This document shows positions 21,867 to 39,014 of a DNA stretch of 64,000 bases, in pieces. The stretch is taken from positions 1-64,000 of the forward strand of contig JASJBF010000010.1 in the NCBI GenBank assembly GCA_030066685.1, in the 5' to 3' direction. A program made the position numbers and the translations under genes. Numbering within the stretch: position 1 is the stretch's first letter; every line of letters begins with the position of its first letter. The notes beneath the pieces are model-generated. The model saw nothing but the letters and a program-made list of their open reading frames with translations. It was not told where the DNA came from and searched no databases. This DNA comes from Kiloniellales bacterium (GTDB lineage Bacteria > Pseudomonadota > Alphaproteobacteria > Kiloniellales > JAKSBE01).

Positions 21867-22109
21867 CCCTCTGCCTCGGTTATTCATCTCGAAGGATCAA
21901 AGGTGGGGATATCAGCGCCATCCCGGGGTGGCCACTCGATTCCATGCAGGCTCGCCGACCTTTCGTCCAGCGCCTGCGTCTCGACCCACCAATCCGTCCT
22001 GCCTTGGGGAAAACCGCAGATTGGGTAAGGCATGCCGACACGGCCGTCCCGAAGTTCCCCGCAATTCCCCTGGGCCGGAACCTATGGGACTCCGGGCAAG
22101 GAGAGGCTG

Positions 22110-22118
22110 TTTTCCACA
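22110..22118 (+). promoter_or_regulatory. DnaA-box-like 9-mer in oriC gap
   Basis: TTTTCCACA differs by one base from the consensus TTATCCACA. It lies in the middle of the ppsR-hemE gap. Confidence 0.5.
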
Positions 22119-22177
22119 AGCTGATCCGATATGCCAACGCGAAGAAGCGTGACCCGGCGGCTGGCTTGGGGTACCTG

Positions 22178-22186
22178 CGTGGATAA
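22178..22186 (-). promoter_or_regulatory. DnaA-box-like 9-mer in oriC gap, inverted
   Basis: CGTGGATAA on the plus strand reads TTATCCACG on the minus strand, one mismatch to the consensus. It is 14 bases from a second partial box (TGTCCACA at 22201-22208) and about 45 bases from the AT-rich element. Confidence 0.55.
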
Positions 22187-22282
22187 CACACAATCCCCGC
22201 TGTCCACAGACCCAACAACCACTTCCCTGATTCCTTAAGATTCTTATTTTGAAGTGTAACCACCAGCCGGAGAGCGCGAACC

Positions 22283-26975: not shown

Positions 26976-27953
26976 TCAGGGCAGGAGGATCGTCGATCCC
27001 GTGGTCTTGCGGCTTTCCAGGTCGCGGTGCGCCTGGGCCGCTTCGGCCAAGGGATAGGTCTGGTGGACCTCTATCTTGACCGCGCCCGAGAGCACGACCT
27101 CGAAGAGCGCCTTGGCACTGGCCTCCAGGTCCTCGCGCTTCGCCGTATAGGTCATCAGGGTCGGCCGGGTCACGAAGAGCGAGCCCTTCTGGCCGAGGAT
27201 GCCAAGGTTGACCGGCGGCACCGGGCCCGAGGCGTTGCCGAAGGTCACCATCAGGCCCAACGGCCGCAGGCAGTCCAGGGAGTCGTCCCAGGTGTCCTTG
27301 CCGATCGAATCGTAGACCACGGGCACGCCTTCGCCGCCGGTGATCTCCTTGACCCGCTCGACGAAGCGCTCCTCGCGGTAGTTGATCGGATGGTCGCAGC
27401 CGTGGGCCCGGGCCAGCTCCGCCTTCTCCGGCGAGCCCACGGTGCCGATCACCTTGGCGCCCAGGTGTTTTAGCCACTGGCAGGCGATCAGACCGATGCC
27501 GCCGGCGGCGGCGTGCAGCAGCACGGTCTCGCCCGCTTTCACCGGATAGGTCCGGCGGATCAGGTACTCCACCGTCATGCCCTGGAGCATCATGGCCGCA
27601 CCGGTCTCGTCGCCGATCGCGTCGGGCAAGACCACGACTCGGTCGGCCGGCATCAGGCGGACCTCGGCATAGGCGCCGACCGGCGGCGCGGCGTAGGCGA
27701 CGCGGTCGCCCTCGCTGAGGCCGCTCACCCCGTCGCCCAGCGCGTCGACCACGCCGGCGGCCTCCATGCCGATGGCGTGGGGCAGGTCGCCCAGGGGATA
27801 GAGGCCGGTCCGATGGTAGACGTCGATGTAGTTGAGCCCGATCGCGGTCTGGCGGATGCGGATCTCGCCGGGGCCGGGATCGCCGACCTCGACGTCGTCG
27901 TAGCGCAGGTTCTCGGGCCCGCCGGGGGCGTGGATGCGGACGGCTTTGCTCAT
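26976..27953 (-). CDS. qor: NADPH:quinone oxidoreductase, zeta-crystallin type
   Basis: 325 residues starting at ATG 27953, which overlaps the preceding dienelactone hydrolase stop by 4 bases (ATGA). MDR-superfamily features: GLNYIDVYHRTGLYP, GMEAAGVVDALGDGV, the NADPH motif HAAAGGIGLIACQWLKHLG, and GSPEKAELARAHGCDHPINY. There are no structural-zinc cysteines, as expected for QOR. It performs one-electron reduction of quinones. Coupling to the hydrolase suggests a shared detoxification or catabolic role, unproven. Confidence 0.93.
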   Translation of the reverse strand: MSKAVRIHAPGGPENLRYDDVEVGDPGPGEIRIRQTAIGLNYIDVYHRTGLYPLGDLPHAIGMEAAGVVDALGDGVSGLSEGDRVAYAAPPVGAYAEVRLMPADRVVVLPDAIGDETGAAMMLQGMTVEYLIRRTYPVKAGETVLLHAAAGGIGLIACQWLKHLGAKVIGTVGSPEKAELARAHGCDHPINYREERFVERVKEITGGEGVPVVYDSIGKDTWDDSLDCLRPLGLMVTFGNASGPVPPVNLGILGQKGSLFVTRPTLMTYTAKREDLEASAKALFEVVLSGAVKIEVHQTYPLAEAAQAHRDLESRKTTGSTILLP

Positions 27954-28645
27954 CGGCTCAGGTGCTCCTTGAAGAAATCCGCTGTCCGGGCGTTGGCCAG
28001 CTGGGCGGCCGCGGCGTCGTAATGGGCGCCGCCCTCGCGGGCGAAGGCGTGGTCCTGCCCCTCGTAGACGTGTAGGGTGACCTGCGGATGGCCGGACAGG
28101 CCGGACTGGATCTTCTGCTGCGCCTCCGGCGGCACGAACTGGTCCTTGGCGGCGACGTGGAGCAGGATCGGCCGAGTGATCTGCGAAGCCTCGCCCAGCA
28201 GCTCGTCCAGGCCGACGCCGTAGTAGCTGACGCTGCAGTCGGCATCGGAGCGGGCGGCCATGAGGTAGGCGAGCTTGCCGCCGAGGCAGTAACCGACCGC
28301 GCCGACCTTGCCGCTGCAGGCCTCGTGGCCGCGGAGCTGGCCCAGGGTGGCAGTCAGGTCCTCGACCCCCTTGGCGACGTCGAAGGCGTTGAACAGCCCG
28401 AAGGCCTGCTCCCATTCCGCCTCGCTCTGATCGGTGATCTGGATACCCGGCTCGATCCGCCAGAAGAGATCCGGGCAGCAGGCGGCATAGCCCTGGGCGG
28501 CGAGTCCGTCGCAGATGTCGCGCATGACCTTGTTGACGCCGAAAATCTCCTGAATGACCAGAAGACCGGGCGCCGGGGTGCTCGCGGGCAGCGCCAGATA
28601 GGCCCCGAAGTCACCGTCCGGGCCCGTGATCGTGATGTCGGGCAT
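27950..28645 (-). CDS. Dienelactone hydrolase family protein
   Basis: Start at ATG 28645 (MPDITITGPDGDFGAYLALP), with GAGGGAGGAGAA in the ribosome site; 231 residues. Alpha/beta hydrolase with the DLH triad: nucleophile C120 in GAVGYCLGGKLAY, Asp in HVAAKDQFVPPE, and His in EGQDHAFAREGGAHYD. The Glu of the LLVIQEIFG motif is present. It hydrolyses dienelactone-like or other ester substrates; the natural substrate is unknown. Confidence 0.93.
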   Translation of the reverse strand: MPDITITGPDGDFGAYLALPASTPAPGLLVIQEIFGVNKVMRDICDGLAAQGYAACCPDLFWRIEPGIQITDQSEAEWEQAFGLFNAFDVAKGVEDLTATLGQLRGHEACSGKVGAVGYCLGGKLAYLMAARSDADCSVSYYGVGLDELLGEASQITRPILLHVAAKDQFVPPEAQQKIQSGLSGHPQVTLHVYEGQDHAFAREGGAHYDAAAAQLANARTADFFKEHLSR

Positions 28646-34587: not shown

Positions 34588-34603
34588 TGTTTCACGTGAA
34601 ACA
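34588..34603. promoter_or_regulatory. parS centromere site 1 (perfect)
   Basis: TGTTTCACGTGAAACA, the full 16-bp palindrome recognised by chromosomal ParB. It lies between mnmE and mnmG, about 12.4 kb from the putative origin and about 3.5 kb from parB. Confidence 0.95.
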
Positions 34604-36626: not shown

Positions 36627-37274
36627 ATGGACCCCGAGGACGCCCTGACGCCGCAGGCCTTTCAAGAGCAAAGCGGTGTTTCACGTGAAACACAGGCCCG
36701 GCTAGAGGCCTACGTCGCGCTGCTCCGGAAATGGAACCGCCGGATCAATCTGGTCAGCCGGGCCAGCCTTGAGGACGTCTGGCGCCGCCACGTTCTGGAC
36801 TCCAGCCAGCTTATGGCCTTCCTGCCGTCGGCGCCGAGCGGTCGGCGCCGGGTGCTCCTGGACCTCGGCAGCGGCGCCGGCCTGCCCGGCCTGGTCCTCG
36901 CGATCCTCGGCGCCGGCGAGGTGCATCTGGTCGAGTCGGACGGACGCAAGGCGGCCTTCCTTCGCGAGGCGGTGCGGGTCACCGCGGCTGAGGTCCGGAT
37001 CCACGCCTGCCGGATCGAAGCCGTGACTCCCTTTCCCGTCGACGTCGTAACCGCACGGGCGCTGGCGCCCTTGCCCCGTCTGCTGAACTTGGCGGGACCC
37101 TTCCTGGGGCCGGACAGCCAATGCCTCTTCCTCAAGGGCGCCGGGGTCGCGGCCGAGCTAGAGGCGGCGCGAGCGGCCTGGGATTTTTCGATGGAGTCTC
37201 ACCCCAGTTGCACGTATTGTAGCGGCGCTGTCCTAGTTATTGGGGTCAATGGCCGTGCAACCACAGCATCTTGA
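36627..37274 (+). CDS. rsmG: 16S rRNA m7G527 methyltransferase RsmG (GidB)
   Basis: 215 residues from ATG 36627, with GGAG 4 bases upstream. An in-frame ATG at 36573 overlaps mnmG and would add 18 Pro/Gly-rich residues. The SAM motif LLDLGSGAGLPGLVLAIL (about 77-94) and RRHVLDSSQL are typical. Residues 18-22 are V-S-R-E-T, encoded by the second parS site. The last 26 bases overlap parA. The C-terminus is a standard RsmG end, so the overlap is not a truncation. Confidence 0.95.
   Translation: MDPEDALTPQAFQEQSGVSRETQARLEAYVALLRKWNRRINLVSRASLEDVWRRHVLDSSQLMAFLPSAPSGRRRVLLDLGSGAGLPGLVLAILGAGEVHLVESDGRKAAFLREAVRVTAAEVRIHACRIEAVTPFPVDVVTARALAPLPRLLNLAGPFLGPDSQCLFLKGAGVAAELEAARAAWDFSMESHPSCTYCSGAVLVIGVNGRATTAS
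36677..36692. promoter_or_regulatory. parS centromere site 2 (perfect), inside rsmG
   Basis: A second perfect TGTTTCACGTGAAACA, 2,089 bases from site 1 and about 1.4 kb from parB. It lies in the rsmG reading frame and supplies codons for Val18-Ser-Arg-Glu-Thr22, so the same bases serve ParB binding and protein coding. Confidence 0.95.
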
Positions 37275-38088
37275 CGATTCGTCCGGTGTAAGCCCCGCGC
37301 GCGCGGCCCGGGTCATCGCGGTCGCGAACCAGAAAGGCGGGGTCGGAAAGACGACAACCGCGATCAACCTCGCGACCGCCCTTGCGGCCTGCAAGCAAAA
37401 GGTGCTCCTGGTCGACCTCGACCCCCAGGGCAACGCCAGCACCGGCGTTGGCCTGGAACGCGCCCAGCGGGACAAGAACATCTACCACGTGGTGATCGAA
37501 GGCCGGCCCCTGGCCGAGGCCATCGTCGAGACCAAGGTGCCGGGCATGGCGATCGTGCCGGCTTCGGTCGACCTTTCCGGCGCCGAGGTCGAGATGATCA
37601 ATTTCGATGATCGCGAGAGTCGGCTGCGCCGCGCCCTGGTTTCCGAGCTGCGGAACTACGACTTCATCCTCATCGACTGTCCGCCCGCGCTGGGTTTCCT
37701 GACGATCAACGCCCTGGTCGCCGCCGAGGCCGTCCTCGTGCCTTTGCAGGCGGAGTTCTACGCCCTCGAAGGCCTCAGCCATTTGCTGCGGACCATCGAC
37801 CGGATCCGGCGGCGCTTCAATCCCGAGCTCGAGATTCAGGGCATTGTGCTGACCATGTACGATGGCCGCAACAACCTCTGCAATCTGGTCGCCGCCGACG
37901 CGCGCGCCAACCTGGGCGAGGTAGTCTACAAGACCGTGATCCCGCGCAACGTCCGGGTCTCGGAGGCGCCCTCGCACGGCAAGCCGGTGCTGCTCTACGA
38001 TGTCGGCTGCGCTGGCTCCAGAGCCTACATCAACCTGGCGCGGGAGATCCTGGTGCGCGAGGACCGCCTTTCGGCCCTGGCATCCTGA
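37249..38088 (+). CDS. parA: Chromosome-partitioning ATPase ParA
   Basis: 279 residues from ATG 37249 (a TTG at 37240 is in frame). Deviant Walker A KGGVGKTT at 29-36 (ANQKGGVGKTTTAINLATAL), Walker A' LLVDLDPQGNAST, and Walker B LIDCPPALGFLTINAL. It forms the DNA-associated gradient that moves ParB-parS complexes. The start lies within the end of rsmG and the ribosome site is weak, so translation is probably coupled to rsmG. Confidence 0.98.
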   Translation: MAVQPQHLDDSSGVSPARAARVIAVANQKGGVGKTTTAINLATALAACKQKVLLVDLDPQGNASTGVGLERAQRDKNIYHVVIEGRPLAEAIVETKVPGMAIVPASVDLSGAEVEMINFDDRESRLRRALVSELRNYDFILIDCPPALGFLTINALVAAEAVLVPLQAEFYALEGLSHLLRTIDRIRRRFNPELEIQGIVLTMYDGRNNLCNLVAADARANLGEVVYKTVIPRNVRVSEAPSHGKPVLLYDVGCAGSRAYINLAREILVREDRLSALAS

Positions 38089-38126
38089 TCCCGACGCCGA
38101 GGCTTCGGCGAAGTCCGGGGGTGAAC

Positions 38127-39014
38127 ATGGCAAAGCAAGACAGGCCCAGCAACCTGGGGCGCGGTTTGGCCGCGCTGCTGGGCGACGAGACCGAAGACTA
38201 CACGACGCTCGACCGGGTTCGGACCAGCAAGCAGGTGCCGGTCGAGTTCCTCCATCCCGGCCGCCTGCAGCCGCGGCGCTACTTCAACGAAGAGTCCCTG
38301 GCTGCGCTGGCGGAGTCGATCCGCGAGAACGGTCTGCTGCAGCCCATCCTGGTGCGCCGGGATCCTGAGCAGCCGGACACCTTCGAGATCGTCGCCGGCG
38401 AGCGGCGCTGGCGGGCCGCCCAGATCGCCCAGCTTCACGAGGTGCCGATCGTCATCCGCGAGCTGAGCGATGCCGAGACCTTGCAGCTCGCGCTCATCGA
38501 GAACGTCCAGCGCGAGGACCTTTCCCCGCTCGAGGAGGCGGACGGCTACCGCCAGCTGATGGCAGAGTTCAGCTACACTCAGGATGCGCTCGCCAACGTC
38601 ATCGGCAAGAGCCGCAGCCACATCGCCAACACGCTGCGCCTGCTGAATCTGTCGGAGCCGGTCCGCGAGCTGCTGACAGAGGGCAAGCTGAGCGCCGGCC
38701 ACGCCCGGGCCCTGCTGAACGCAGAGGCGCCGGAAAAGCTCGCCAGGAAGGTGGTGGACAAGGGTCTGTCCGTTCGCGAGACCGAGCGCCTCGCGAATCA
38801 GACCAAGGCGAAGGACTCGGCGCCGAAGAAGGCCGCGAGGGTGGCGGCCGAAAAGGATCCCAACACGGTGGCGCTGGAGCGCGACCTTTCCGCCCTGCTC
38901 GGGCTCAAGGTCTCGGTGACCTTCCACGGCTCTGGCGGCGCGCTGACCATCCACTACAACACCCTGGACCAGCTCGACGACGTGCTGCACCGGCTGCACC
39001 AGTCGCCGGCCTGA
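38127..39014 (+). CDS. parB: Chromosome-partitioning CTPase ParB
   Basis: Start at ATG 38127 (MAKQDRPSNLGRGLAALLGDE); a GTG at 38121 is also in frame. 295 residues. The N-terminal LGRGLAALL motif that contacts ParA, the CTP-binding boxes NGLLQPILVRR and GERRWRAAQIA, ENVQREDLSPLEEADGYRQLM, the HTH DALANVIGKSRSHIANTLRLL, and a C-terminal dimerisation segment are all visible. It binds the two parS sites upstream. Confidence 0.98.
   Translation: MAKQDRPSNLGRGLAALLGDETEDYTTLDRVRTSKQVPVEFLHPGRLQPRRYFNEESLAALAESIRENGLLQPILVRRDPEQPDTFEIVAGERRWRAAQIAQLHEVPIVIRELSDAETLQLALIENVQREDLSPLEEADGYRQLMAEFSYTQDALANVIGKSRSHIANTLRLLNLSEPVRELLTEGKLSAGHARALLNAEAPEKLARKVVDKGLSVRETERLANQTKAKDSAPKKAARVAAEKDPNTVALERDLSALLGLKVSVTFHGSGGALTIHYNTLDQLDDVLHRLHQSPA

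Follow-up and report, generated by a model that had tools for sequence, protein, structure and literature searches.

The ppsR–hemE gap and its neighbors

The window, a 64,000-nucleotide stretch of the genome of a Kiloniellales bacterium, contains an intergenic gap between ppsR and hemE (Table 1). According to NCBIfam names, the neighboring genes are dnaQ, coaE, aroE, maf, and ppsR on the minus strand and hemE, hemH, hemJ, and rho on the plus strand, bearing out the description, in an earlier note made from the sequence alone, of flanks that read outward on both sides. The ppsR–hemE synteny was kept in nearly all relatives examined, and the gap adjoins hemE and has a conserved divergent neighbor, the arrangement looked for in a hemE-linked alphaproteobacterial oriC. 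In Rhodospirillales bacterium 47_12_T64, the gap spans about 2.4 kb (L078 631–3001), as against 0.4–0.6 kb.

Table 1. Features of the ppsR–hemE gap and the nearby par locus (positions are those of the window)
Feature	Position	Strand	Remarks
ppsR–hemE intergenic gap	21888..22282	.	Proposed chromosomal oriC, 395 bp
DnaA box TTTTCCACA	22110..22118	+	1 mismatch; retained in congener
DnaA box TTATCCACG	22178..22186	-	1 mismatch; retained in congener
Held-out alphaproteobacterial origin-core model match	22181..22246	+	E 1.8e-5
Weak DnaA-like box 1 CAATCCCCG	22191..22199	+	4 mismatches
DnaA box 2 CTGTCCACA	22200..22208	+	2 mismatches; abuts box 1, adjoins trinucleotide run
GC-rich 4-bp spacer GACC	22209..22212	+	Layout like PMC8287927
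Trinucleotide run CAA-CAA-CCA (opposite strand 3'-GTT-GTT-GGT-5')	22213..22221	+	Proposed deviant DnaA-trios
DNA unwinding element	22220..22260	.	Least stable 40 bp in window; includes both GATTC sites
Perfect parS TGTTTCACGTGAAACA	34588..34603	.	12–14 kb from gap
Perfect parS TGTTTCACGTGAAACA	36677..36692	.	12–14 kb from gap
parA	37240..38088	+	AAA_31 / ParA-type ATPase
parB	38121..39014	+	ParB_N, HTH_ParB, ParB_C

DnaA boxes, GANTC sites, and duplex stability

Three DnaA-box-like motifs had been described in the gap. Those at 22110 and 22178 are present with one mismatch each; the third is also present, with two mismatches, but starts at 22200 rather than 22201. The boxes were rightly called few and imperfect, as only two in the gap have at most one mismatch. 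These two in 395 bp compare with 0.10 expected by shuffling, and the five boxes with at most two mismatches give the gap the top density among all 395-bp windows of a 144-kb contig stretch, where the mean is 0.25. The ppsR–hemE gaps of relatives, whose genomes are related to one another, contained 162 boxes versus 7.7 expected. Genome-wide, exact TTWTCCACA occurred 22 times versus 15 times for a reversed-pattern control, indicating no genome-wide cluster.

The AT-rich stretch that had been pointed out coincided with the lowest-stability 40 bp of the window, as calculated from nearest-neighbor energies, and the GANTC pair within it was confirmed as GATTC at 22229 and 22239. Features beyond the earlier note are the tandem weak box at 22191–22199, the trinucleotide run at 22213–22221, and the two perfect parS sites. 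The ATCCCC form of box 1 recurs at the same place across Alphaproteobacteria and resembles the Caulobacter W-box, the sequence of which we take to be TCCCCA. W-boxes exist in Caulobacter (PMC4468827).

Two further GANTC sites lie in the gap, at 21938 and 22088. In the gaps of about 127 relatives, GANTC was enriched (520 versus 227 expected). The enrichment was strongest in the 130 bp directly preceding hemE (194 versus 59.5 expected), a hint that CcrM methylates DNA at the unwinding element. GcrA is encoded in the genome, which, together with the enriched sites, makes GcrA/CcrM-type timing of the origin plausible.

In domain IV of DnaA, the RPRQ and GGRDHTT residues read the DnaA box. The DnaA of this bacterium is complete in its domains, and domain IV agrees with solved DnaA structures in this DNA-reading segment (RPRQ, GGRDHTT). 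A canonical domain IV implies no unusual box preference, so the differing recognition pattern suggested previously is not needed; the departure lies in the trinucleotide element beside the boxes.

The remaining close pairs of exact boxes in the genome are on contigs C39 and C51. Two perfect TTATCCACA boxes lie about 300 bp apart on contig C39 (25725 and 26023; L125 1726 and 2024), upstream of, and at the start of, an ORF reading like a class II ribonucleotide reductase, and may possibly reflect DnaA control of nucleotide supply. On contig C51, two TTTTCCACA boxes lie 101 bp apart (39241 and 39342), with a third 7.4 kb further and no origin-core match.

Chromosome-scale evidence for the origin

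The genome is split into 73 contigs, and GC skew is flat, with no switch at 22 kb, both in the window and in 144 kb of its contig; chromosome-wide skew was therefore read from relatives. G016, from the same order, consists of a single contig; its order placement is based on named relatives (a Kiloniellales MAG with HemE 88% identical). In G016, each of the 26 bins of 10 kb between 113.9 and 373.9 kb had negative GC skew; from there up to 553.9 kb, 17 of 18 bins were positive and the remaining one was −0.001. As hemE starts at 373,899, matching the cumulative-skew minimum within 10 kb, this sign change places the minimum at the ortholog of the ppsR–hemE gap. The skew-minimum check proposed in the earlier note, run in this relative, thus came out at hemE. 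The skew flipped back at 2.37–2.57 Mb, the antipode. In another single-contig genome, G005, a weak skew and the polarity of KOPS (GGGNAGGG), scored with the E. coli consensus, turned at about 2.3 Mb, opposite the gap at 30 kb; around the gap of the Kiloniellales bacterium itself, KOPS sites were too few for a polarity signal. The two parS sites, beside parA and parB, are the only parS-like sites in its whole genome.

A conserved origin core

We compared gaps from about 130 alphaproteobacterial genomes; these relatives are non-independent, and redundancy was lowered by identity cut-offs. With box-only anchoring, a common order emerged: box 1 (nnATCCCCg), box 2 (nnnTCACAG or nnnCCACAG), 3–5 bp, a trinucleotide run, and an AT-rich stretch. 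The core in the window reads CAATCCCCG-CTGTCCACA-GACC-CAA-CAA-CCA-CTT, followed by the unstable stretch. Only one congener had a usable gap; the block 22132–22258 was 92% identical to it, versus 67–72% in the remaining gap upstream of the block.

A core model was then trained on 22 alphaproteobacteria outside the genus, with five odd box-anchored rows excluded. In the whole 5.96-Mb genome, it matched only once, at 22181–22246; the next-best score within the window was E 0.7. G016, which is outside the training set, had its match at 373,778–373,837, in its gap. Across the class (115 genomes), 41 of the 48 best matches, at E ≤0.014, share the orientation of hemE and precede it by 17–365 bp. At E ≤1e-3, this was true of 34 of 37, and the remaining three came from G152, G155, and G108, genomes without a hemE match. 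In G108, the core adjoins two perfect DnaA boxes. The presence of the core in genomes without detectable hemE indicates that it follows origins, not hemE. Being searchable in genomes, the core locates alphaproteobacterial origins that have too few boxes or a flat skew.

The other two of these loci were observed to be rich in boxes. In G155, a reduced genome with no hemE detected, at least 15 TTATGCACA boxes, mostly with an 11-bp period, lie at about 50,900–51,165 of contig C4 and adjoin a CTA/CAA trinucleotide core; the locus reads as an origin with a uniform non-consensus box. In G152, likewise with no hemE detected, the core CAACAACAACAA follows TTCACAGGCC among several DnaA boxes (C78 near 27,937–27,980; L260 1300–1660).

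Taken together, box density, duplex instability, the parS sites, the core model, and the skew of a relative support the origin call of the earlier note: the ppsR–hemE gap almost certainly serves this Kiloniellales bacterium as its single chromosomal replication origin. Computation shows its location, its architecture, its uniqueness, and its conservation, and the origin is placed in an order for which the literature searched contains no replication-origin paper.

The trinucleotide run as a candidate DnaA-trio element

In basal unwinding, DnaA binds tandem boxes, extends as a filament on single-stranded DnaA-trios, and opens AT-rich DNA (PMC8287927; PMC10201434). DnaA-trios are 3'-NAN-5' (NTN on the box strand) and number three or more, and the existence of deviant DnaA-trios is merely suspected (PMC8287927). 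In the window core, the box CTGTCCACA stays inside the limits for that system, two mismatches and 16 bp from the trios, from which it is separated by the 4-bp spacer. The core contains no three or more 3'-NAN-5' trios, 22213–22221 being CAA-CAA-CCA, and this misfit to the rule makes the trio role putative.

We analyzed 50 non-redundant alphaproteobacterial gaps, anchored by a box-only matrix and with the five odd rows re-entered. NTN runs of at least three were not enriched (7 versus 8.6 expected), and the published 3'-NAN-5' rule was rejected for these gaps. C-N-A runs of at least three occurred 17 times versus 0.5 expected, and their middle bases on the box strand were A 44, T 28, C 12, and G 0. 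No C-N-A run of three was found at any of 27 places with equal box score elsewhere (1.27 Mb). In Reyranella-type genomes, this place is taken by textbook CTA (3'-GAT-5') repeats; other runs combine CTA with CAA, e.g., CTACAACTACTAC in G155. The trio rule across the 50 gaps is thus C-N-A (3'-GNT-5'), and the conserved three-base repeat suggests that Alphaproteobacteria open DNA with a looser version of the motif known from other bacteria.

On balance, we favor a single unwinding core common to alphaproteobacterial origins, consisting of a weak tandem pair of boxes (ATCCCC, then CCACAG), a short spacer, and 3'-GNT-5' trinucleotides with fixed outer bases and a free middle base, which would be the suspected deviant DnaA-trios. 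If this is true, DnaA need not read the middle trio base.

Proposed mechanism

DnaA-ATP would bind the scattered gap boxes (22110 and 22178) and the weak tandem pair (22191–22208). From the tandem pair, a DnaA filament would extend onto the bottom strand of the CAA-CAA-CCA run, a step that we regard as fairly likely by analogy, and would open the weakest duplex of the region (22220–22260), where the helicase would be loaded. We predict DnaA binding, the spread of the filament over the C-N-A trios, and helicase loading from the basal unwinding system of Bacillus subtilis. The new origins would be segregated by ParB on parS 12–14 kb away.

Alternative explanations

The conserved block lies 25–150 bp upstream of hemE, and the Caulobacter origin overlaps hemE promoters; the gap might thus be merely a divergent hemE/ppsR promoter region, with the block as the hemE promoter and the true origin elsewhere. 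We consider this very improbable, as tandem DnaA boxes together with a trinucleotide run are not expected of a promoter, the skew minimum falls at hemE in G016, and parS sites cluster near the gap. The core is moreover present in G152, G155, and G108, where hemE was not found, and in G155 and G152 it adjoins a DnaA-box cluster. Because the core persists without detectable hemE, it is not a hemE promoter, and a hemE promoter as the sole explanation was ruled out. An origin beside dnaA-dnaN, common outside Alphaproteobacteria, has still less probability, at the very bottom of our scale. The earlier note had named denser boxes near dnaA as evidence against the gap, but the 20 kb around dnaA-dnaN, on contig C40, contained no box with one mismatch or fewer, and the core model had no match near dnaA-dnaN; this location was rejected.

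The origin may also be real while the C-N-A run belongs to the unwinding element or is bound by another protein, e.g., one that loads the helicase or has a regulatory role. Lacking the bound-strand middle adenine that defines DnaA-trios (PMC8287927), the CAA form would fit such a role. Against it, the place and spacing of the run relative to two tandem boxes are as in the basal unwinding system, Reyranella-type genomes have genuine CTA (3'-GAT-5') repeats there, and CTA and CAA share single runs. We therefore regard this alternative as possible but rather doubtful. On the preferred reading of the run as deviant DnaA-trios, the stated open question of DnaA-trios without a middle adenine becomes directly assayable.

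Comparison with known origins

The gap resembles Cori of Caulobacter crescentus in its weak W-box-like boxes, parABS within about 15 kb, and enriched GANTC. Its other flank is ppsR, which we take to be the RP001 family beside Cori. Unlike Cori, it has few near-consensus boxes and neither a full CtrA site nor a strict IHF site. Searches of the gap for TTAA-N7-TTAA, the Caulobacter CtrA consensus, gave no full site and one partial match (TTAAGATTCTTATTT at 22235); the strict IHF consensus gave none, and the Cori-type box T[GT]ATCCACA gave nothing complete. The label "Caulobacter-type" in the earlier note therefore holds for the location but not for the CtrA and IHF sites. With hemE-linked alphaproteobacterial origins, which include Cori and the predictions for Rickettsia and Wolbachia (PMC1914354), the gap shares its place beside hemE, DnaA boxes, and an AT-rich stretch, along with the weak boxes, parABS, and GANTC sites just named.

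Compared with the basal unwinding system of B. subtilis (PMC8287927), the gap is alike in its tandem boxes, GC-rich spacer of about 4 bp, trinucleotide run, AT-rich stretch, and strand order. It differs in its free middle base, the box strand reading C-N-A (3'-GNT-5') where the published trios are 3'-NAN-5', and the CAA-CAA-CCA of the window has no NTN triplet run. By this analogy, alphaproteobacterial gaps look like a case of deviant DnaA-trios to which DnaA would bind. The origin is of a known kind, and the deviant trio is its new part.
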